Virus record (IMG/VR): IMGVR_UViG_3300009504_000328
Span: 1 to 22,238 of that record
Strand: one strand, 5' to 3'
Length of the DNA stretch: 22,238 bases
From: a virus
Positions 6,867-20,536 of this stretch are shown here, piece by piece. The notes under the pieces are model-generated. The model did no database searches. It was given only the letters and a program-made list of their open reading frames with translations, and was not told where the DNA came from. Position 1 is the first letter of the stretch; each line of letters begins with the position of its first letter. Both the position numbers and the translations under genes were made by a program.

Positions 6867-9800
6867 ATGCCATACCCGAATCAACATGCGGCTCGGATTA
6901 GAGAGCCGGAGGGATTTATTAAGACGTCATTCATCACGAAGCAAATCGCTGCTGGGATCACGATAATCGCCGGCAAGCTGAAAAGCGGTGGGACGGCTCT
7001 TGTAACGCAGGCTTATAGATTCGCAAAGGACAAATATACCGCTTCGGCGGCAAAAGAGTGGATGAAACGGAATAAGATTAAGTATATCAAATTTGAGGAA
7101 GCTGAGGACACAAAAGACACAAACGAGGTGAACGATATGGCGAAAAAAGGCAAATTGGACAAAAATGAAATATATGCCACGATTCCAAATAGTATTGAAT
7201 CTATGTTAAACAAAATCAAAGACGCTATTGATAAAAATAATCCCTTTGGCATGTTGCGGGATAATGAATATGTAAGCGTTGAGGCTACTTTTGATGATTC
7301 TATAATAGTCTATAAATGGGGTGATGGAGAGCGCAAATATTATCAAGCTAAATGGAAGACAAATAAAGAAGGCGAGGTGGAGTTCTCAGATATAAAGCAA
7401 GTTGAAGTGAATGCGGTTATAAAAGTCAAAAATGAGATGCGCGAAAGAGCCGCTATGGTATCTTTGAATGAATCGGTTGATATGAATGAGACGATTGATA
7501 TTTCGTTCATATTAGAGAAGAAGGAAGAGGAAGCTGACGAATTAGAGAATTATTCTAGCAAGGCAATTTTCAAGCAAGAACATTCGGGTAATAATCGCGA
7601 ATATCCGCCGCAGGTAATGAAGGAGGCTATTGATGACGTAAAGAGCCGATTGCCGATTTTGATGGAGATACAGCATCCTAGAGATGGCAATATGGTGACG
7701 GATTTGGAGAAGACGGCGGCAATCATCAATAAAGTTGAACGCACCGATGACGGGCAGATAATACTTGAGGACATAAAGTTTGTGCCGACTGAGGCTGGTA
7801 AGACGATGTTTGGATTGTCTAAGACATTAGCGAAGTCGGGCGCAAAGTTAGGAATAAGTCAGAGGGCGACTGGTAAGTCGCATTATGTTAAAAACGAATC
7901 AACAGGGGCTGTCAAGGAAGTTGTTGACTGGCTACGAATCAAGAAATGGGACTTTACCGCTCCCAACGAACAGGGCGTTAAGGACGCACAATTTGAGCTA
8001 TTAATGGAGGAAAACGAGATGGCAGACAAAAAGGTATTGACCGAAGATGAAGTAACCGCGCTTTTGGGCGCGCAAAAGACTGAATTTATGACTATGATTG
8101 ATGAACTAAAAAATGCGCAAGCTGAACCGCCAAAGGTTGAAGAGCCGAAGGTTGAGCCAAAGCAGGAGAAGAAAGAAGAGTCAGATGGCAACAAGCTAAT
8201 CCTTGAGATGCAACAGAAGTTTAATGATGCAACAGAGAAGCTCAACCGTTTGACTCGTAAAGAGCAGATGACGGAACTCATCACAACTGGCACGAGGCTG
8301 ATGACTGAGGAACTAACGAAAGAGGATTATAAGCGATTCTCCGAAGCCGAAAAGAAGGTCTTGCTGGAGAGCGTAGATTTTGAGGTTGTATATCCGAAAG
8401 TTGATATGAGCAAGCCAGAAAGCATCACTGCTACGATTCTGGAATCGCTCAAAAACGAGATCAACCAGCTTGATAGGCTGATTGCGGCTTCTAAGCTCCG
8501 CGAGACGGGCTATCCGAAAAAGGGTACTGGCAACGGGATAACAAATGTCGAGGTGATAAATGAGAATGTTCCCGGCATGGAGCAAATCAAACGGCTAGAG
8601 AAAGACGTTGAACGCGCGATTGACCCGTACAATAAATACTGGAAACTCCCTGACGACCATCATGGACAGAGCGTTATCAATGAGATAATGAATAAGTATT
8701 ACAAGGACAATCATGAGAAGCTGATGCTGGAAGCAAACGAGGAATTCAAGCAGGATGATATAGGCGCGCGGATTGCGACAATCAACGCTGTTGTGATACC
8801 AGCGGCATTGAGACGATTGACGGCGATGAAGTTCTGCAATGTAGTGAACATGAAGGCATTGCTGGATTTTGTGCTGATAGAATCGTATGTGCCGACAATC
8901 GAGAGCAATGTTCATACCAATCTGGCATTATTCCAGCCAACTGAGGATGGGACGCTCACAATGGTTGGGTCAACCACCGTGGGCTATCCGATAGTTGCCA
9001 CTGAGAAAGGCTTCAGGACGATGATAACGACAAAGGCTATCGCTACAGCGAAAAATAGCGTTATTGATCCGGTGGTGATGTCAGTCGCGTCTATGGCGAA
9101 GCTAGGGGCGCAAATAACGGATCAGTACATATACGAATTTGTGATCGCTAGAACGCAGGGCTATGATGCTAGTGAGGTCTCGTCGTGGGAAACGCTGACT
9201 AAAGTAGGCGCTACGGCTGAATATCAGTCAGTCAATCAGGGCTGGATAAAGTATGAGCCATATAAGCATTATGACGGCAATGGCAACCCGGATGACGCGA
9301 AGCTCCTGAATCTGTTTGGCACGACATCGGGGAATGTATTGCAAAAGATTGAAATCGGTCATGGAGGTACTCCGACTGTGCTGACTTATGGGACGCATTA
9401 CACAATCAATTTTGCCGATGGGTCGGTGACATTGACCGCAGCGGGTGTTTCGGCTGTCTCAACTGACGATGTGAAGGCTAAATATTCATATACGAATAAC
9501 GCTAAATTCTGGAGCGTGACAGGCGGAGCGGGAACCGTGACGCTATATGACTGGCTCTTGAACTTGCAACAGATGATCGGGCAGGCAAAGGTATTGATTC
9601 GCAAGCGGCATTATGATCCAGATTTTGCCGTTGCGGGCATAACGGTTGAGGACTTGATTTCTAAGGGTCCGCAGTTTAACGCCTCGATGTCACAGCAAGG
9701 AAGCGTCAAGGACGCGTTGACTAATGTTATCACTTATGACGGCTTGCCGATGGACAGATCGGGCTGGGCGCCTGATCACTGGGTTATCGTTGGGGCTAAA

Positions 9801-9965
9801 GGCGCGGTAATCTTCGGCGTGCATACTCCGCCAATGGTTTCTGGACCTGTTGAAGACACAACGACTACGAGCAAGTATTACAAGTATAACGGCTTTACGG
9901 CTGTTGATGTGCCTGTGCCGGCGCAGTTCTCGCTGGTTGGCATCACAGATTTAGCGAGTTTATAA
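6867..9965 (+). CDS. Prohead protease-scaffold-major capsid fusion (1032 aa)
   Basis: One uninterrupted frame encodes what is usually two or three genes. Residues 1-90: an N-terminal domain (PYPNQHAARIREPEGF start) as seen ahead of phage proteases. 91-214: an unassigned insert. About 215-384: a T4 gp21-like serine protease with NNREYPP (242-248), catalytic His270 in EIQHPRDG and Ser331 in GISQRATG. 385-566: an acidic, Lys/Glu/Pro-rich then coiled-coil scaffold or delta region. About 567-1032: an HK97-type capsid protein with an inserted beta domain near 'THYTINFADGSVTL'. Strong internal ribosome-binding sites precede Met91 and Met385 in frame, so shorter products are likely. Candidate (L/I)XE cleavage motifs are LRE (544-546) and INE (564-566). 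Confidence 0.88.
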   Translation: MPYPNQHAARIREPEGFIKTSFITKQIAAGITIIAGKLKSGGTALVTQAYRFAKDKYTASAAKEWMKRNKIKYIKFEEAEDTKDTNEVNDMAKKGKLDKNEIYATIPNSIESMLNKIKDAIDKNNPFGMLRDNEYVSVEATFDDSIIVYKWGDGERKYYQAKWKTNKEGEVEFSDIKQVEVNAVIKVKNEMRERAAMVSLNESVDMNETIDISFILEKKEEEADELENYSSKAIFKQEHSGNNREYPPQVMKEAIDDVKSRLPILMEIQHPRDGNMVTDLEKTAAIINKVERTDDGQIILEDIKFVPTEAGKTMFGLSKTLAKSGAKLGISQRATGKSHYVKNESTGAVKEVVDWLRIKKWDFTAPNEQGVKDAQFELLMEENEMADKKVLTEDEVTALLGAQKTEFMTMIDELKNAQAEPPKVEEPKVEPKQEKKEESDGNKLILEMQQKFNDATEKLNRLTRKEQMTELITTGTRLMTEELTKEDYKRFSEAEKKVLLESVDFEVVYPKVDMSKPESITATILESLKNEINQLDRLIAASKLRETGYPKKGTGNGITNVEVINENVPGMEQIKRLEKDVERAIDPYNKYWKLPDDHHGQSVINEIMNKYYKDNHEKLMLEANEEFKQDDIGARIATINAVVIPAALRRLTAMKFCNVVNMKALLDFVLIESYVPTIESNVHTNLALFQPTEDGTLTMVGSTTVGYPIVATEKGFRTMITTKAIATAKNSVIDPVVMSVASMAKLGAQITDQYIYEFVIARTQGYDASEVSSWETLTKVGATAEYQSVNQGWIKYEPYKHYDGNGNPDDAKLLNLFGTTSGNVLQKIEIGHGGTPTVLTYGTHYTINFADGSVTLTAAGVSAVSTDDVKAKYSYTNNAKFWSVTGGAGTVTLYDWLLNLQQMIGQAKVLIRKRHYDPDFAVAGITVEDLISKGPQFNASMSQQGSVKDALTNVITYDGLPMDRSGWAPDHWVIVGAKGAVIFGVHTPPMVSGPVEDTTTTSKYYKYNGFTAVDVPVPAQFSLVGITDLASL
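7125..7139 (+). promoter_or_regulatory. Internal ribosome-binding site and start at Met91
   Basis: GAGGTG (7125-7130) lies 6 bases before an in-frame ATG (7137), at the junction between the N-terminal domain and the rest of the protease-capsid fusion. Initiation here would give a 942-residue product starting MAKKGKLDKNE. Confidence 0.5.
8006..8021 (+). promoter_or_regulatory. Internal ribosome-binding site and start at Met385
   Basis: GGAGG (8006-8010) is followed after 8 bases by an in-frame ATG (8019). It falls exactly between the protease domain and the scaffold region. Initiation gives a 648-residue scaffold-capsid protein (MADKKVLTEDEV) without protease, comparable in logic to the nested lambda C/Nu3 start. 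Confidence 0.7.
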
Positions 9966-10047: not shown

Positions 10048-11493
10048 ATGGCTAAGTTAAAGGATACAGTAGAATATCAGGACGCTATCGGTTCACGTGA
10101 CGATGCGGCATCCGCAGCCGCTGGGGCGTCATTGATTGCGTTACAGCGTCAAATTCTCGATACTGTCGGAGTATATGAAGGCGGGGCAGTAACGGCTATT
10201 CTAGGCGCGCTAAACGTTGCGGCGGCGACTGGCGCAGTTGGCACGAATAAGACGATGATGGCTTATCTGAAGCAGTTAGTCACCGAAGGCATCGCCAGAG
10301 ACGCGGTTATCGGCGCGAAGAATACCGCGGCGGCAACTGGCGCGATTAGCGATGAGAAGCTATTGATGGCTTATATCAAGCAAATTGTGACCGAAAGCAT
10401 CGCTAGGGATGGCGTTATTGGGTTAAAAGATACTGCCGCGGCAACCGGAGCGGTTACTGATGAAGACCTTATTATGGGCTATATCAAGCAATTAGTCACC
10501 GAAGGCATTGCCAGAGATGGCGTTATTGGGTTAAAAGACACTGCCGCGGCAACCGGGGCGATTAGCGATGAGAAGCTATTGATGGCTTATATCAAGCAAA
10601 TTGTGACTGAAGGAATCGCCAGGGACGCGGTGATTGGCTTGAAAGACACCGCCGCGGCAAGCGGCGCGGTTGGCGATGAAAAACTGTTGATGGCTTATGC
10701 TAAACAGCTAGTCACAGAAGGAATTGCTAGAGACGCGGTGGTAGGCGGCTTAACGGATGCGGCAAGCGATACCGTTGATGTGTCGACAATCGTGATGCTT
10801 TTGCGACAGATAGTCGAGGCGGTTAATAATGGCACAGGAGCGGCGATTGGAGAGAATTTATCGCTTGTTGACTTGTTAGGTGCGTTTGACGGTGGAGCCG
10901 ATCCACAGGGCGATATATTCCAAGCGCTTGGCGTTGACGAAAATAACTCAATAGTTGACTTATTAGGCGCGTTTGATGGCGACGCGGATCCACAGGGCGA
11001 CATCTTCCAAGCTCTTGGCGTGGATGAGAATAATTCAGTCAAGGATTTGATTGATATTGTTTTAGCGGCGCAACTGCCGAAGCTGGCAAAGAAAAAGGTT
11101 GATTATGACGGCTCGTCAGGGAACGGTCAGGCAGGCGTTGTTGTGCCTTTATTTACCGTAACCGGCGGCGTTAAGTTGAAGCTATACGCTATCTGTACGG
11201 ATGATTTAATAGAAGGCGAGGGTGATGGCACAACTGAGGTTGGCATAGTCGGGACAACCGATGCGCTGATAGCCACGACTACATCAGCCGCTATAGACGA
11301 GGGCGAGATATGGCATGACGCCTCTCCAGACGCTAAAGTGGAACTCGAATCTGTCGCGACAGAATATATACTTGGCGATGGGCAGAATGTTATCCAGACA
11401 ATTACTACCCGTAACATTACCGATGGGACGATAGAGTTTTGCGTTGAGTGGACGCCTTTGACGGCTGATGGCGATGTGACGCCTGTATCGTAA
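10048..11493 (+). CDS. Repeat-rich structural protein, putative capsid decoration/head fibre (481 aa)
   Basis: No enzyme motif. Residues 60-239 are five tandem 36-residue repeats with core MAYIKQLVTEGIARDAVIG and linker KDTAAATGA, likely helical. Residues 272-329 are two 29-residue repeats (LLGAFDGGADPQGD... ALGVDENN). The C-terminal domain (about 345-481) is beta-rich and clearly paralogous to the whole next gene, sharing EIWHDASPDA, CTDDL and a common strand order. ATG 10048 has GGAGG 8 bases upstream. Its place directly after the capsid gene and before the connectors suggests a virion surface protein; the shared C-terminal domain would be the capsid-binding or trimerising part. A fibre-like role is inferred, not shown. 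Confidence 0.7.
   Translation: MAKLKDTVEYQDAIGSRDDAASAAAGASLIALQRQILDTVGVYEGGAVTAILGALNVAAATGAVGTNKTMMAYLKQLVTEGIARDAVIGAKNTAAATGAISDEKLLMAYIKQIVTESIARDGVIGLKDTAAATGAVTDEDLIMGYIKQLVTEGIARDGVIGLKDTAAATGAISDEKLLMAYIKQIVTEGIARDAVIGLKDTAAASGAVGDEKLLMAYAKQLVTEGIARDAVVGGLTDAASDTVDVSTIVMLLRQIVEAVNNGTGAAIGENLSLVDLLGAFDGGADPQGDIFQALGVDENNSIVDLLGAFDGDADPQGDIFQALGVDENNSVKDLIDIVLAAQLPKLAKKKVDYDGSSGNGQAGVVVPLFTVTGGVKLKLYAICTDDLIEGEGDGTTEVGIVGTTDALIATTTSAAIDEGEIWHDASPDAKVELESVATEYILGDGQNVIQTITTRNITDGTIEFCVEWTPLTADGDVTPVS
10225..10764 (+). repeat. Five tandem 108-base coding repeats
   Basis: Each unit encodes 36 residues of the form ATGA[IV]xDEKLLMAYIKQ followed by [IL]VTE[GS]IARD[AG]VIGLKDTAA. Units 2-4 are the most alike, also at DNA level (shared ATTAGCGATGAGAAGCTATT). 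Expansion by unequal recombination or slippage is likely. Confidence 0.9.
10861..11034 (+). repeat. Two tandem 87-base coding repeats
   Basis: Units 10861-10947 and 10948-11034 each encode 29 residues beginning S[LI]VDLLGAFDG and ending ALGVDENN. They are nearly identical in protein and very similar in DNA. Confidence 0.88.
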
Positions 11494-11516: not shown

Positions 11517-11960
11517 ATGCAATTATTTGAGAAATTGGACGTTAGCAGTTATTTAGCTAAGAAGACAATTATCTTTGATGGCGATACAGGAAGCGGCGAG
11601 GTGGGCGCAGTTGACGTATTCAATATTACTGGCTTAGTCAAGGCGAGGTTTATTGCGCGCTGTACTGATGATTTAGTTTCGGATAACGACCCTGGAGGCG
11701 CGACGATCAGCATGGGCGTTAGCGGCAGTGAGACGGCATTTATCGCGTTGACAACTGCTGAGAATATTGATGAGGACGAGATATGGCATGACGCCTCTCC
11801 AGACGCTACTATTGAATTAGAGAGCGTTGCGCCATGGTATTTTATCAATGGCGAAGATGTGATATTAGACGTTGGGACGGATGATATTGTTGACGGCGCG
11901 ATAGAGATAATATGCGAGTATATACCGTTTTCGGATAACGCATCGGTAGCGATAGCGTGA
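11517..11960 (+). CDS. Putative capsid decoration protein, paralogue of upstream C-terminus (147 aa)
   Basis: A stand-alone copy of the C-terminal domain of the preceding protein: matching TGSGEVGAV / SGNGQAGVV, ARCTDDL / AICTDDL, DEDEIWHDASPDA / DEGEIWHDASPDA and ELESVA. The two genes share an identical 32-base stretch (11304-11335 and 11777-11808). Probably beta-rich and acidic; no enzyme motif or membrane segment. GAGGTG lies before ATG 11517, 23 bases after the previous stop. A small beta-rich protein here is likely a head decoration protein. A free domain plus a domain-tethered repeat fibre suggests the two may form mixed oligomers on the capsid. Confidence 0.68.
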   Translation: MQLFEKLDVSSYLAKKTIIFDGDTGSGEVGAVDVFNITGLVKARFIARCTDDLVSDNDPGGATISMGVSGSETAFIALTTAENIDEDEIWHDASPDATIELESVAPWYFINGEDVILDVGTDDIVDGAIEIICEYIPFSDNASVAIA

Positions 11961-14150: not shown

Positions 14151-14162
14151 GAGGAATTGACA

Positions 14163-15824
14163 ATGGCAACTAAAGGATATGCGAGTTATTTAATCGCAGG
14201 CAAGCAGACAAATTGGAATACGGTCATCAATAATGATGAATTCAACGGCATCATATATGAGTTCATGAGTTCTTCGCTCAAAAACAATTCAACGCCAATC
14301 ACGCCGACACGCTTCAAGGGCAATGCGAGTCCAATGCCACAGATTGAGAATTTCCTGAGCGCGGAGGGAGATATTCAGTTTAATCTCCATGCCGATAATA
14401 TGGTGATGTGGCTGGCACAGATGCTCATGGACGATATGAGCGATAACCCGGTTGTTGGCGACTGGACGGAAGTATTTGGCGATGGCATGGGCGAGGGCAA
14501 GGCATGGACATTTGACGAGGAGTTAGATGATCAGCCGGGCGATGTTGACCAAGAGCCCGGGAGGTTGCGCTTTACCTTTTCGGATGATGTGACGCTATCG
14601 GTGATTATCTTTGGCACAAACGCTAATGACAAGGCTATTATGGAGACATTGGTATTTGATGACGAGGATATTAAGACAACGATACAATACTTCAAGACTG
14701 TTAATGGCATGGACTTCAGCATCGAGCCGCCTGGCGATGAGACGGTCTTGATTGAATGTAGTAAGGAAAAGCCGGGCGATGTTGTTGAGCCTGAATGGCT
14801 AGAGGTATTTGGGAATACAGAAGGCGGCGGCAAAGCGTGGACAGATCCGGATAATCTCGATACACAGCCGGGGGCATTAACGCCAAGCCAGGCGCCAGCG
14901 TTGCTTAAATTCACCTTTGGCGCGAATGATACGATACAGGTGGATATAACAGGCACGGATCAGAATGATACGGTCATAGAAGAGACTCTAACATTTGCAA
15001 ACGAGACAACGAAGACAACGACAAAGTATTTCAAAACGGTAACGGAGATAGACTTCACAAACGAGGCAGGCGGCGGCGAGACGTTGTTTATCGAAGCCAG
15101 CAAGAACGTTTATATCCATACGATAGACTTAAAAGACGATATTCTTCCCGGTCTGACTATCGAGGAAGTCAAAGGCGCGTTACCATCAACTTATGTCGGC
15201 TGTTTGGTTAATCAGGGAACATTCGAGTTAGGCGATATAATCACAATGACGCTGGCATTGATGGCAAAGCGCGGCTGGAACAGCTACATTTGCAAGTCAA
15301 CAGGCAACGAAGTTGAAGTATCGGAGACGCCAACGGATGTTTCGTCATTCGATAGGGTATCGCAGGAGATTTTTCCGGCGTGGGGCATGGCATTAGAGAT
15401 CAACGGCGCGGGCAATCCAACGCCGATTGGCTCAATGACGCTAGTGATAAATAATCAGCTTGTCAATCCTTCGACACGCTTCCGTAACGATAGGACGCTC
15501 CCGAAGCCTGTCAGGAACGATAATCGCGATATCACATTGACATGCAATATTGATTACGATAGCGACAATAACGATTGGGACGAGAAGTTTGAGACGATGC
15601 AGGAAGCGTCTGCAATTTTGTATTGCTATCGTAAGCCTCATGCGGGACCTGAATTGAAGATAACCTTTACTCTCCCAAGATGTCAGATCGGCGCGTATCC
15701 CGATCCTGCGGTGACGGATTATGCGGAGGTATTGCAGGAGATTATTTTGCGTCCTATTCGCACCGAGAATGCGACTGATAGCGATGAGCTATCTATAACT
15801 GTCCAATGTTTAGCGGATGAATAA
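14163..15824 (+). CDS. Major tail tube protein with two inserted tandem domains (553 aa)
   Basis: Forms the tail tube. The ATG at 14163 has GGAGG (14150-14154) 8 bases upstream; an in-frame TTG at 14157 is less likely. N-terminal about 95 and C-terminal about 240 residues resemble tail tube proteins ('GYASYLIAGKQTNW', 'GDIQFNLHADNM', 'GMALEINGAGNPTPIGSMTL'). Between them lie two related domains, about 97-208 and 209-315, each starting W(T/L)EVFG, continuing through FTF, ETL, KYFKTV and ending ECSK/EASK. They look like Ig-like or carbohydrate-binding decorations on the tube surface. The total length is well above the usual 150-350 residues because of these inserts. No sheath gene is found, which fits a siphovirus. 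Confidence 0.75.
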   Translation: MATKGYASYLIAGKQTNWNTVINNDEFNGIIYEFMSSSLKNNSTPITPTRFKGNASPMPQIENFLSAEGDIQFNLHADNMVMWLAQMLMDDMSDNPVVGDWTEVFGDGMGEGKAWTFDEELDDQPGDVDQEPGRLRFTFSDDVTLSVIIFGTNANDKAIMETLVFDDEDIKTTIQYFKTVNGMDFSIEPPGDETVLIECSKEKPGDVVEPEWLEVFGNTEGGGKAWTDPDNLDTQPGALTPSQAPALLKFTFGANDTIQVDITGTDQNDTVIEETLTFANETTKTTTKYFKTVTEIDFTNEAGGGETLFIEASKNVYIHTIDLKDDILPGLTIEEVKGALPSTYVGCLVNQGTFELGDIITMTLALMAKRGWNSYICKSTGNEVEVSETPTDVSSFDRVSQEIFPAWGMALEINGAGNPTPIGSMTLVINNQLVNPSTRFRNDRTLPKPVRNDNRDITLTCNIDYDSDNNDWDEKFETMQEASAILYCYRKPHAGPELKITFTLPRCQIGAYPDPAVTDYAEVLQEIILRPIRTENATDSDELSITVQCLADE

Positions 15825-15927: not shown

Positions 15928-16581
15928 ATGAACGCTGGAGAAATAGCAAGCAAAAAAGCGAGCAGTAAGAACCTTTCGGCAAGTTCCACCAAACAACAAA
16001 GCACTAATAATATCGCTGGCTTGACGACTTATGACGATCTGATGTCAGAATATCAGACGGATATTGTTAAGACGCCATCGGGTTTGACTTTCATTATACA
16101 GACGATTAACCCTGGGGATTATTTGGCAATTATCGGCACGCCATTATTGAAATATATGTCCGCTCATGGCATTGACATAAGCGATCCGCAGGCGAGGACG
16201 CAGGCGGTGATGGATATGCCGGCAAACGAGCAGGTAGAAATCCTTTCAGATCCTAATTTTCAAGAGATGTTGAAGAGTATCGTCTGCGCGGGTATTGTGC
16301 CGCATGATAAGCTCAGGGTGGTTAATAAGAGAGCTTATGATTGCGATAAGAGCAAATATGAAGTATCAATAGACGTTATCCCCGTTGCGGATTTATACCA
16401 TATCTTCATAGAGATAATGAAGCTCAGTCAGGGGGAGGAATTCGCAGACGAAATAGAGCTTTTTCGTGAACAGCACGAAATCCGACCGGGTGAGGCAGTG
16501 GCTGATCCGGGTCCATCAGATGGGGAAAGCTTACAGCAGGAGACCGAGCCAGATATTGTTTCCTCGAATAGCGAATCCTAA
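15928..16581 (+). CDS. Tail assembly chaperone, short form (217 aa)
   Basis: Located between tail tube and tape measure, the fixed place of the lambda G/GT-type chaperone pair that coats the tape measure during tail assembly. ATG 15928 has AAAGGAGA 7 bases upstream; an in-frame TTG at 15925 is unlikely. The first 30 residues are Ser/Lys-rich and disordered; the core includes TPSGLTFIIQTINPGDYLAIIG and a helical C-terminal half ending YHIFIEIMKLSQG. From residue 180 on the frame turns into a low-complexity tail (PGPSDGESLQQETEP), as expected when the real continuation lies in another frame. The long form is described at 16466. Confidence 0.8.
   Translation: MNAGEIASKKASSKNLSASSTKQQSTNNIAGLTTYDDLMSEYQTDIVKTPSGLTFIIQTINPGDYLAIIGTPLLKYMSAHGIDISDPQARTQAVMDMPANEQVEILSDPNFQEMLKSIVCAGIVPHDKLRVVNKRAYDCDKSKYEVSIDVIPVADLYHIFIEIMKLSQGEEFADEIELFREQHEIRPGEAVADPGPSDGESLQQETEPDIVSSNSES
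16459..16467 (+). promoter_or_regulatory. Candidate +1 ribosomal frameshift site CUU_UUU_CGU
   Basis: In the chaperone frame the codons are CTT TTT CGT (16459-16467). Slipping from UUU to UUC by one base (Phe tRNA re-pairs) enters the second chaperone frame at GUG 16466. That frame is closed by TAG at 16454, so the site sits at the first possible position of the overlap. It matches the known UUU_CGU motif of influenza PA-X. Confidence 0.6.
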
Positions 16582-16729
16582 TATCCAGATGCTCATAGAC
16601 AATATGGTCTTTGAGCTAGGACGCAAGCAAGAGATTGAGGAAGAATCGGAATGGGAAAAGATGAAGATAGAGCATCAGCACAAGATGCTGGAGACGCTAA
16701 TTAATGTGCTTGTGAAGGTAGTTAGATGA
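16466..16729 (+). CDS. Tail assembly chaperone, frameshift extension (T-like, 87 aa)
   Basis: Frame +1 to the upstream chaperone and overlapping it by about 115 bases. It has no ribosome-binding site of its own, and the first in-frame GTG is exactly where the slip lands, so it is probably expressed only as a 266-residue fusion (179 residues plus 87). The segment RPSQILFP, preceded by GKAYSRR and followed by LIDNMVFELG, matches the recurrent 'RPSEIL...' part of tail chaperone extensions. The remainder is a charged helix with EEESEWEKMKIEHQHKMLET. The stop overlaps the next start as ATGA. The missing independent start and conserved position make the fusion reading strong. Confidence 0.72.
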   Translation: MNSTKSDRVRQWLIRVHQMGKAYSRRPSQILFPRIANPNIQMLIDNMVFELGRKQEIEEESEWEKMKIEHQHKMLETLINVLVKVVR

Positions 16730-16920
16730 TAACCTATCATCTCCCCACCGGCGGCGGGTGTGTATTTTGCACTTGCGGGCATGATGTTCCATGTAAGTAT
16801 ATAGAGCCAAAAAAATGGCGTGAATGGCAACTGAACAATAGGCGTGTAATCAAGGATTTTGACGATGGCAGATGTAAGATTAACGATAACAGGACAGAAC
16901 CTCAGCAAGCAGGCGATTGA
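16726..16920 (+). CDS. Small Cys-rich protein between chaperone and tape measure (64 aa)
   Basis: ATG 16726 overlaps the chaperone extension stop as ATGA, so translational coupling is likely. The sequence has a dense metal-ligand cluster, CVFCTCGHDVPC (Cys12, 15, 17, His19, Cys23), followed by YIEPKKWREWQLNNRR and a final Cys. This looks like a small zinc-binding protein of unknown function. The last 18 codons overlap the start of the tape measure gene in another frame. It fills an otherwise empty 135-base gap in a very compact operon, which supports reality; the overlap is a reason for caution. Confidence 0.55.
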   Translation: MITYHLPTGGGCVFCTCGHDVPCKYIEPKKWREWQLNNRRVIKDFDDGRCKINDNRTEPQQAGD

Positions 16921-19900
16921 TCAGCTTAAGAAGGATTTAGAGGAAACCACTAGGAAGCTGAACGAGGTTAGTCAGGGCAATGTCAAGGTAGATGATACCA
17001 GCAAGAAGGCGCAGGCGGGCTTATTGATGGTCGCTGGCGGCTTAGGCGCGATATCGGCGGCAGGGGTACTGATGCTCAGGTCGACTATCGGCGCGGCGAC
17101 AAGGCTTGAACGGATGAAGCTAGCGCTGGTCGCCGTTGCGGGTAGCACAGAACGCGCTAACGCGCAATTCAGGGATTTAATCGAACTAGCGAAGATGCCG
17201 GGCTTAGGGTTGCCAGAGGTAAGCAAGGCGGTTACATCCTTGCAAGCGCTGGACGTTAGTTTTGAGGATTCTAAGCGGATTGTCCGCGAGTGGGGCAACG
17301 AGATCGTCAAGATGGGCGGCGGGAGAGATAACCTTGACCGCGTGATTGTGCAGTTGACGCAGATCATGGGCAAGACCTCTGGGTGGGGACAGGACATCAG
17401 GCAGATAGCGGAATCCATGCCATCTATACGCAAGCACATGATAGCGGCATTTGGCACGGCGACATCGGAAGAGTTTGCCAAGATGGGCATTACAGCACAG
17501 AAGTTCATCAAGGGCATTACTGACGAGTTAGCGAAGCAGTCGCGTGTTGCCGGCGGGACGCAGAACAGCATTGATAACTTGCGCGATAGCTGGTTCCAGA
17601 TGCAGGCGATGCTAGGCGAGATATTGCTTCCGACATTCCAGAAAGTATTGGATAGTTTAGCGAAGATGGTCGAATATGTCAAAAACTTATCGGCAACTCA
17701 GCGAGAGATAATCGCCTGGGGGACGGTAAGCGTGACGGCGCTTGCGGCTATTGGCGCGGCGGTTGCGGGACTAACGTTTACTATCGCCAAGCTCAAGGTG
17801 ATGATTGGTGCTTTAGCAGGCACTTGGGCGTGGTTTGCGGCGCATCCTGCTGGCGCGGCGGCGATTGCTATCGCGGCAGTTGCAGGCGCGCTGGTATCGC
17901 TATATATGAAGTCGCAAGATACGACAACGCGGGTCAATAAACTCGGCAAGGCGATAGATAGCACTAAGGCGTCTGCGGATAAGCTCAAGAAAATGGAAGG
18001 GCTGATAAACGAGATTGAGAAGCTCAGGGGCAAGACGGAACTCACCACCGAAGAGCATGGCAAGCTGAAGGACGCTCAAAGCGAATTAATCAAACTCTCT
18101 CCCGAATTTGTCGCTAAATTTGATAAGGAAGGCAATGCGATCGCCTTAGCGACTGACAAGCTCAAAGAACATATTGATAAGCTAAAAGAGATGCACGGCA
18201 TTGAACGCATGGAACGTGAACGGCTGGCAATGGAGGAGATTGCCAAGATTGAGGATAAAATCAATAAGAAAAAAGCCGATAGGCAAAAGCTTGAGGCTAA
18301 TCTTACAAAAGCCAGCGAAAAACGCTTAAAGGGCGAAAAAGTCGTCTTTGAACCATCTTTTGATTGGGCAGGGTATATAGGGACTCCCGAAGGGGCGATA
18401 AAGTATTTTAGCAAGGAGATGGATAAGATTGATGAGGAGACGAAAGCGCTTGAAGAGCAACTTAAGCAAGTAAGAGAATTGGTTAAATCTTTTAAGGTTA
18501 TTTCAGCAGAGCCTTTTGGTCCCCCAGAGCCACGACCAGCGTATCAGCCGACAAAGGAAGAGGAAGCGGCGTTTGCGGATTTGCAGAAAGCGCAAGCCGA
18601 GGCGATTGAGGACACATATAGGCGCAGGATTGCGTTAGCTAACCTCACATTTGCTGAAGAGACAAAGGGGCATAAAGAGGCGCGTGAAAGCATTATCGCT
18701 AATGCGCAGACCGAAGAGGAACGCAAGGCGAAGCTTGACGCCCTTGACGCTAAATATCAGGCGGCAAAGATTAGACGCGATATCGCCATCCGGGACGCTG
18801 AAAGAGATAGACAGGAAGCGATACAGAAAGTTATCAATGATACTCTTGATAAGGAACAGCAAAGGATTGAGGATTTACGCAACCGCAGAGAAGAGGCGAT
18901 AGCGGAGCGCGAAAGGCGGCAAGAGGAGGCTTTCAGGAAAGATTTAGAGCGTATTGGCAGGCATAACGAATTTGAAGCCGAGCAGACACAACAGCAACTT
19001 GATAAAAGCGAATCCATCAGGGGCGATGCAGACGATAGACGGCAAAAGGAGACTAAGGAGTTTTACGAATTCCTTGAACGCATTGAGGAAGCTAAACGGA
19101 CAGAGGAGAAAAAAACCTTTAATGCCTATTATCAAGCTGAGGAGGCAAGGATTAGCCTGATCCAGAATAATCGCGAAAGAGAGCTTGAGCAGATAAGATT
19201 GCAGTATGAGACACGAGTGAAATATATTGAAGACGAGTTGAATTCTGAAAATATCTCTTATGAACGCAAGGTGGAACTCGAAAGGCAGTTAGATTATCTT
19301 AAAAAGAAGTATATCAGCGATAGATGGGCAGTGGTGAACAGGGCGATTGAGATGGAGACGCAGAAGACCTTTAATGCCTATTATCAGGCTGAGGAGATGC
19401 GTATAGGATTAATAATTGATAATCGTCAACGCGAGATAGAGCAAACAAGGCTGAAATATGAGACCAATAAAAAGTATATTGAAGCGGAACTGGCTGAGGA
19501 AGAAATATCTTATGAACGCCGGATGGAATTGGAACGGCAACTAGCATATTTGCGGGAGCAATATACGAGAGATGTCACAACGATCCAGAATCGTACGCGT
19601 GACGAACTGCTCAGGACGACAAGCGATACGATTGCGGCGTTGCCATCGGGACTTGCTAGAGCGCTATGGGAAGCGAGGAGCCTTCATGAGCGATACGCTG
19701 ACGATATAAAGGCTTTGAACGAGGAGACGGCGCGGGAGATAAACAGAATCAATAGCGACTACGCCAAGTCGGCGGCGCAACGGCATCGAGAGATTGAAAG
19801 ATTAGAGAAAGAATCGGCACAACGCAGGCTGGAGATAGAGAAGCAGCTGGACGCTGAACGCAGGGCGATATATACGGATTTTATCAAGAATTTCTTTATG

Positions 19901-20536
19901 AAGCTACTGAGTAGCCTTGAGACACGCGCGACTGATATGCTATCAGACGCGATATTCAAGTTTTTGAAGAACCGATTTGCCGAACAAGACCAAGACCAGG
20001 GCATTGACGTCGCGGGCATTGGCATAGGATTAGCGACTGGCAACCCATGGCCGGCGGTGGCGGCATTGGCACAACCGATGTTATCAGGTATCATATTTGA
20101 TAATCCCGCGAATGACGCTCTAGCGAGGGATTATGGCAGGCAATCGGCGTTATTGTATGGGGCGTCATTTGATAATCCTATCAATGATACTCTAGCGAAG
20201 GATTTTGGCAAGCACGCGGCGGCGCTTTATGGCGCGTCGTTTGATAATCCTATCAATGACTTTAACGCGAAGCTGATGGGGACGAGGACGGCGGCATATA
20301 GTCTTGGCAGGAGGTCGGCTGATGATATGCTATCGAACTTTACACAGGGCTTTGCTGAGGGCGCCAGGACACGGGGCGAGACGGCGAAGGATAGCGAAAT
20401 AGCGGAACTCTTGAAGGAGTTGAAACACGCGCTACAGAATCCAGCGGCTTTCAAGCTGAATATTGACGGTAGAGAGCTTCATAGCACAATAGCAAGACTG
20501 GACGATAAGATCAGGGCTAGGGGGAGCGGGTATTAA
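16865..20536 (+). CDS. Tail tape measure protein (1223 aa)
   Basis: Sets tail length and is released on infection. The start is ATG 16865 with AAGGA 8 bases upstream; the in-frame TTG at 16859 is unlikely. Domains in order: an N-terminal coiled coil; a TP901-type core (about 60-265, with VTSLQALDVSFEDSKRIV and GKTSGWGQDIRQIAESMPSI); hydrophobic stretches at about 280-345 (VSVTALAAIGAAVAGLTF and HPAGAAAIAIAAVAGALV); then a long highly charged coiled coil (about 365-1040) including an 84-residue tandem duplication at 750 and 834; and three 24-residue repeats near the C-terminus (1078, 1102, 1126). By the usual 0.15 nm per residue rule the tail would be roughly 180 nm, an estimate only. Confidence 0.93.
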   Translation: MADVRLTITGQNLSKQAIDQLKKDLEETTRKLNEVSQGNVKVDDTSKKAQAGLLMVAGGLGAISAAGVLMLRSTIGAATRLERMKLALVAVAGSTERANAQFRDLIELAKMPGLGLPEVSKAVTSLQALDVSFEDSKRIVREWGNEIVKMGGGRDNLDRVIVQLTQIMGKTSGWGQDIRQIAESMPSIRKHMIAAFGTATSEEFAKMGITAQKFIKGITDELAKQSRVAGGTQNSIDNLRDSWFQMQAMLGEILLPTFQKVLDSLAKMVEYVKNLSATQREIIAWGTVSVTALAAIGAAVAGLTFTIAKLKVMIGALAGTWAWFAAHPAGAAAIAIAAVAGALVSLYMKSQDTTTRVNKLGKAIDSTKASADKLKKMEGLINEIEKLRGKTELTTEEHGKLKDAQSELIKLSPEFVAKFDKEGNAIALATDKLKEHIDKLKEMHGIERMERERLAMEEIAKIEDKINKKKADRQKLEANLTKASEKRLKGEKVVFEPSFDWAGYIGTPEGAIKYFSKEMDKIDEETKALEEQLKQVRELVKSFKVISAEPFGPPEPRPAYQPTKEEEAAFADLQKAQAEAIEDTYRRRIALANLTFAEETKGHKEARESIIANAQTEEERKAKLDALDAKYQAAKIRRDIAIRDAERDRQEAIQKVINDTLDKEQQRIEDLRNRREEAIAERERRQEEAFRKDLERIGRHNEFEAEQTQQQLDKSESIRGDADDRRQKETKEFYEFLERIEEAKRTEEKKTFNAYYQAEEARISLIQNNRERELEQIRLQYETRVKYIEDELNSENISYERKVELERQLDYLKKKYISDRWAVVNRAIEMETQKTFNAYYQAEEMRIGLIIDNRQREIEQTRLKYETNKKYIEAELAEEEISYERRMELERQLAYLREQYTRDVTTIQNRTRDELLRTTSDTIAALPSGLARALWEARSLHERYADDIKALNEETAREINRINSDYAKSAAQRHREIERLEKESAQRRLEIEKQLDAERRAIYTDFIKNFFMKLLSSLETRATDMLSDAIFKFLKNRFAEQDQDQGIDVAGIGIGLATGNPWPAVAALAQPMLSGIIFDNPANDALARDYGRQSALLYGASFDNPINDTLAKDFGKHAAALYGASFDNPINDFNAKLMGTRTAAYSLGRRSADDMLSNFTQGFAEGARTRGETAKDSEIAELLKELKHALQNPAAFKLNIDGRELHSTIARLDDKIRARGSGY
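19112..19615 (+). repeat. 252-base tandem duplication inside the tape measure gene
   Basis: Two units of 84 residues start at 19112 and 19364, each opening KTFNAYYQAEE and containing YETxxKYIExEL and ISYERxxELERQL. DNA is nearly identical at the start (ACCTTTAATGCCTATTATCA). A coiled-coil duplication of this kind would lengthen the tail. Confidence 0.9.
20096..20310 (+). repeat. Three 72-base repeats near tape measure C-terminus
   Basis: Units starting at 20096, 20168 and 20240 each encode 24 residues beginning FDNP[AI]ND and, in the first two, ending [ALY]LYGAS. The third degenerates after FNAKLMG. Confidence 0.85.

Follow-up and report, generated by a model that had tools for sequence, protein, structure and literature searches.

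Tail assembly chaperones are expressed through -1 frameshifts on X_XXY_YYZ-type sites in phages lambda and P2, and through a -2 shift in Mu. In lambda G/GT and other phage chaperones (of the type treated by Xu et al. 2004), the locus precedes the tape measure gene and yields a short form and a frameshifted long form, with the T domain located after the shift. The same arrangement is found in the window analysed here, the complete IMG/VR virus record IMGVR_UViG_3300009504_000328 of 22,238 bases, in which a G frame and an overlapping extension lie between the major tail protein gene and the tape measure gene. Unlike lambda, to which no similarity was detected here, this locus would shift forwards on UUU_CGU. 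Judging from sequence comparison, it very likely makes a G/G-T pair by +1 slippage on UUU_C in the ribosomal peptidyl (P) site.

In influenza A PA-X (UCC_UUU_CGU), the +1 shift has been mapped to this UUU_CGU motif and shown by mass spectrometry (PMC3498833), and the original prediction was right to draw this parallel. UUU_CGN sites are likewise reported in plant amalgaviruses, with AGN variants in the aminoacyl (A) site (PMC5052127). Both systems resemble the window in P-site re-pairing on UUU_C and in a CGN codon in the A site, but they involve eukaryotic ribosomes, and the CGN codon of the phages is only CGC or CGT. The codon in the exit (E) site also differs, being UCC in PA-X, CTT in the window and CGA or ACG in many of its relatives. 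Among bacterial systems, +1 re-pairing of the P-site tRNA is represented by prfB (CUU_UGA), Listeria phage tsh (CCC_UGA), and Yersinia YopN-TyeA (UUU_Y); the first two pause at a stop codon whereas the window presents a sense Arg codon, and YopN-TyeA is not a chaperone. UUU_Y has been described as +1-prone in bacteria, and the tail chaperone of the haloarchaeal virus HSTV-2, an archaeal myovirus, has been called very likely +1 (PMC5009743). In addition, the PRFect program was trained on both -1 and +1 SEA-PHAGES cases, its authors stating that a general forward-frameshift motif has yet to be identified (PMC10885494), and some phages, among them Wollypog and Chivey, already carry chaperone annotations joined in the +1 phase. 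The +1 direction originally proposed is supported, but its portrayal as a departure from the known -1 and -2 chaperone shifts was overstated, +1 chaperone shifts being already known in kind (HSTV-2, Wollypog, Chivey, and the PRFect training cases).

In the window, the G frame around the site reads GAA ATA GAG CTT TTT CGT GAA CAG and closes with the TAA at 16579-16581. The extension lies in frame +1 relative to G, which is equally -2, and overlaps it by 125 nucleotides (nt); as had been claimed, CTT TTT CGT stands at the start of the overlap and the extension is open in the +1 frame, the last extension-frame stop upstream ending 5 nt before TTT CGT (Table 1). Across 6,666 codon pairs in the 19 main coding sequences of the window, an in-frame TTT-CGN occurs once, at the overlap start, and the chance of finding one within the approximately 15 codon pairs that permit the shift is about 0.002. 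The extension has no good start of its own. GTG 16466 is its sole early start codon, and the claim that it lacks a ribosome-binding site stood in so far as none is well placed; a Shine-Dalgarno-like AGGGGGAGGA does exist, but it sits 26 nt before this GTG, which is too far off, so independent initiation there is disfavoured. A -1 heptamer (X_XXY_YYZ) was ruled out, the -1 frame being open only at 16572-16598, around the G stop.

Table 1. Features of the chaperone locus and its neighbours in the window (ORF, open reading frame; aa, amino acids; E, E-value)
Feature	Positions	Strand	Basis and remarks
Tail assembly chaperone, short form (G), 217 aa	15928..16581	+	ORF; ATG 15928, AAGGAG upstream
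+1-frame extension (T domain)	16457..16729	+	First codon after TAG 16454-16456; ends at TGA 16727-16729
Putative shift cassette CTT_TTT_CGT	16459..16467	+	P-site TTT 16462-16464, A-site CGT 16465-16467; sequence and conservation
TAG in extension frame, immediately 5' of the shift site	16454..16456	+	Restricts the shift to codons at or after the TAG
Shine-Dalgarno-like AGGGGGAGGA (purine run)	16430..16439	+	22 nt upstream of TTT; sequence and inference
Tape measure protein	16865..20536	+	Pfam PF20155 TMP_3, E 5e-16; PHROG tape-measure families
Tail protein in the major tail protein position, upstream neighbour of G	14157..15824	+	phrog_290 minor tail protein, E 3e-17

The locus would thus encode a lambda-G/GT-like pair of tail assembly chaperones. 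Gene order, frames, homology of the T part, and conservation of the site can be read from the sequences; that the slip occurs, with what efficiency and by which tRNA movement, we infer as follows. The majority of ribosomes would translate G and terminate at 16581. A minority, with tRNA-Phe on UUU in the P site and CGU awaiting in the A site, would slip forwards by one base, the tRNA re-pairing on UUC (16463-16465), a better match to its GAA anticodon, and would then read the extension frame to 16729 to give G-T with the junction EIELF-VNSTK. The analogy with lambda suggests that G may coat the tape measure protein and that tail tube subunits may be recruited by the T part.

Direct searches found no homologues of the window G or of its tape measure protein. 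Remote relatives were therefore used for the conservation test, the virus being isolated and without close chaperone or tape measure kin. Relatives of the terminase pointed to Arthrobacter phage Wollypog, whose chaperone pair carries CGA TTT CGC at the +1 overlap, and to additional IMG/VR contigs whose +1 pairs contain TTTCG. Annotated phages and tblastn searches added Krampusvirus, Terapinvirus, Lambovirus, Konstantinevirus, Plotvirus, Papyrusvirus, and others, with homologous T parts in +1 phase and overlaps of the form NNN TTT CGC/CGT at the same place. A match to Vibrio phage Ceto proved spurious. Profiles for the G and T domains were built from these +1 chaperones, with the window sequence left out of the T profile. 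Among all window ORFs, the extension ranks first against the T profile (E-value 2e-4; runner-up 0.097), and hhalign aligns it to the T domain with an E-value of 3.3e-5 and a probability of 72. Judged by these matches, the extension is homologous to known chaperone T parts, which in the relatives match PHROG 6778. The RPSQIL segment originally taken as typical of T parts is borne out, since the sequence contains RRPSQIL, which lines up with the RPSE motif of the T domain. With two seed T parts as tblastn queries, T homology in the relatives was found to begin at the shift-site Phe.

The first scan for overlaps mixed true pairs with chance overlaps, and only pairs with T homology were retained. 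Collapsing of the sampled loci gave 47 non-redundant lineages, the counts from which are not independent events. The +1 entry in these lineages is TTT CGT in 28, TTT CGC in 16, TTT CCT in two, and AAA AGT in one, such that TTT CGY accounts for 44/47. Sampling by T-part queries recovered TTT CG in +1 phase at 43 of the 43 loci fetched. Sampling by the T profile gave 64/66 over all loci fetched, five frame assignments having been corrected; these five loci had been scored as -1 when a longer chance frame was picked, and all are TTT CG in the +1 arrangement. When the query was a G protein from which T part and site had been removed, TTTCG was again found in 35 of the 37 usable loci, and its offset from the query end was almost invariably 10 codons. 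The proposed check on conservation of TTTCG at the overlap start was thus passed in both the T-profile and the G-only samples, and the homologues lacking it, which were to count against the prediction, are few, each keeping another site of perfect +1 re-pairing: TTT CCT (UUU to UUC) in Nocardia P3.1 and L259, and apparently AAA AGT (AAA to AAA, in the context TTG AAA AGT GTT) in Onyinye and L270. The AAA_AGU of the latter two recalls the AGN variants of the amalgaviruses.

The Phe codon of the site is TTT throughout, whereas 82% of all Phe codons in the same loci are TTC; neither CGA nor CGG occurs as the Arg codon in the A site; and among proteins of less than 60% identity, codons are mostly scrambled outside the site. 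Where an Arg codon precedes TTT in the relatives, it is CGA in 15/15 non-redundant cases versus a background of 15% (p 7e-13, shared ancestry ignored). This bias constrains nucleotides where only one frame is translated, and for that reason suggests an E-site effect, with CGA before TTT as a possible stimulator; such an effect has been proposed for PA-X. In six lineages, the window included, an extension-frame stop lies 5 nt before TTT, and there is therefore no room for earlier entry by re-pairing codons, save for CUU_U in the window. The G stop of most relatives lies 69 nt past TTT, within the codons of the T-frame PSE/PSD motif (CCG AGT GA), and this embedding fixes the distance. The window differs from the chaperones of Wollypogvirus, Krampusvirus, and their relatives in that its G stop lies 117 nt after TTT, outside the PSE motif, and in having CTT as its E-site codon, a more diverged G, and an extra ORF of 64 amino acids between the chaperone and tape measure genes.

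The alternative that survives best, albeit with a small probability, is that slippage takes place on CUU_U, with CUU as the P-site codon, in the manner of prfB. CTT_T, the shift codon of bacterial release factor 2, is indeed present in the window, and such a slip would produce an identical junction peptide. CTT, however, precedes TTT in only 1/46 TTT-type lineages, and the usual CGA and ACG cannot re-pair at +1; a minor contribution of CUU_U may be made in the window virus. The junction peptide ELFVNSTK, offered originally as a check, follows by computation from a +1 shift at the site and would distinguish +1 (LSQGEEFADEIELFVNSTK) from -2 (ELFFVNSTK), but is silent on which P-site codon slips.

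Somewhat less probable again is a Mu-like -2 entry, in which tRNA-Phe would step back two bases in CTTTTTC. The frame alone cannot separate the two directions, and since bases 16460-16462 are TTT, -2 re-pairing is possible in the window. It is possible there alone: the bases preceding TTT in the 45 other TTT-type non-redundant relatives (GA, CG, AG, CC, AC, and others) permit it in none, whereas the C following TTT, which only a +1 shift requires, is invariant. One relative, Send513, carries the annotation "-2 frameshift". The site in Send513 is CCG TTT CGC, at which -2 re-pairing of tRNA-Phe is impossible, and the label is probably a mis-annotation.

We regard it as more improbable still that TTT CGY is retained merely to encode conserved residues in both frames (FR in G; F-A/V in T). 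The G alignment does show no variation at F or R, and T shows none at F; jointly these residues would impose TTTCG. Translation of the site in both frames would nevertheless need entry upstream, where the stop in six lineages leaves just one or two codons whose tRNAs are mostly unable to re-pair, and the unfailing CGA for the preceding Arg falls within a singly read stretch. Least probable of all is that the two ORFs are separate genes, as the frequent annotation of the second as a hypothetical protein or chaperone gene in its own right would have it, or that a sequencing error has broken the frame of a fused gene, given that the extension has no early start at proper ribosome-binding-site spacing, that T homology starts at the shift site, upstream of the annotated starts, and that over 40 lineages, finished genomes in many cases, share the identical frame break. 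P-site slippage on UUU_C is hence the best supported mechanism, because the bases needed for -2 re-pairing vary, the C needed for +1 does not, and upstream stops bar earlier entry.

Several observations nonetheless weigh against +1 slippage on UUU_C at this locus. The homology of G is weak: the window G is the best match to the G profile in the window, yet at an E-value of 0.028, and it matches no Pfam or PHROG model, with none at an E-value of 0.01 to DUF7391 (PF24117) or PHROG 4336, the families to which G of Wollypogvirus, Krampusvirus, and their relatives belongs. The window also has CTT rather than the CGA seen before TTT in many relatives. No signal of a stimulatory 3' RNA structure was detected in the window or in four relatives, and no clear avoidance of TTT-CGY was seen in other genes, the TTT share being 0.29 before CGY versus 0.32 before other Cxx codons in a weak test that included spurious ORFs. 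Lastly, CGU and CGC are not generally slow codons, which leaves the A-site role without explanation. With regard to G, the DUF7391/PHROG 4336 models match all 20 of its aligned relatives, and the 21-sequence alignment has invariant columns at M1, P50, S51, G52, D155, and F179-R180, the last pair being the shift site. On the strength of its G-profile match, the window G is taken as a remote relative of this family, not filed as a member.

The full-text literature searched contains no paper naming a conserved UUU_CGY in phage chaperones, with subscription papers (e.g. Xu et al. 2004) and annotation forums outside reach. While the kind of shift is known, the additions made here appear to be the deep conservation of UUU_CGY, the +1 direction deduced from re-pairing logic, and the CGA bias in the E site. 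The chances seem to us evenly balanced that UUU_CGY, often as CGA_UUU_CGY, is a dedicated bacterial +1 cassette that an ancient family of tail chaperones has retained and that evolved convergently with the UUU_CGN of influenza and the amalgaviruses; in this cassette, the A-site CGN and a weakly paired E-site codon would stimulate slippage without a stop codon, a Shine-Dalgarno interaction, or RNA structure. A chaperone family with UUU_CGY in nearly all lineages would supply a forward-shift motif in bacteria, which bears on the statement in the PRFect paper and on Firth et al. (2012), who predicted the UUU_C/CGN class and raised the question of its cellular use (PMC3498833). Many chaperone genes, some of them labelled as -2 or as separate genes, would also have their annotation corrected, and laboratory-tractable phages (e.g. 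of Microbacterium foliorum and Mycobacterium smegmatis) are suited to measuring A-site and E-site effects on +1 slippage.

With respect to the host, the closest terminase relative (64%) lies on the Candidatus Poribacteria contig WJIO01000049.1, the downstream genes of which differ from those of the window; this gives a hint of the host group. No clear chaperone pair was found in that contig, and the window G protein had no match in 85 genomes from the phylum of that Poribacteria metagenome-assembled genome. A search for Pfam DUF7391 in 396 genomes from the phylum of a Solirubrobacterales metagenome-assembled genome, run without a positive control, returned none.

The chaperone pair belongs to a tailed-phage structural module of terminase, portal, capsid, tail protein, chaperone, and tape measure genes. 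The 64-amino-acid ORF (16726-16920) between T and the tape measure is Cys-rich, has an ATG overlapping the T stop, and was not seen among the annotated relatives examined. Within the tail protein upstream of G, positions 14457-15116 hold two tandem copies of an approximately 104-amino-acid domain, 51% identical, so that this tail tube-like protein contains an internal duplication. Further upstream, the protein encoded at 10048-11493 contains 4.5 copies of a 108-nt repeat and two of an 87-nt repeat, precedes a small protein related to it at 11517-11960, and is possibly a capsid decoration protein. An ORF of 1,032 amino acids at 6867-9965, with its first 100 or so residues matching the N-terminal regions of phage records named "major capsid" and its residues 242-395 weakly matching a prohead protease, is possibly a fused scaffold/protease/capsid gene. 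Finally, a tyrosine integrase fragment is present at 37-681 and an M15 peptidase, likely the endolysin, at 1921-2289, and the virus is on these grounds probably a temperate phage.
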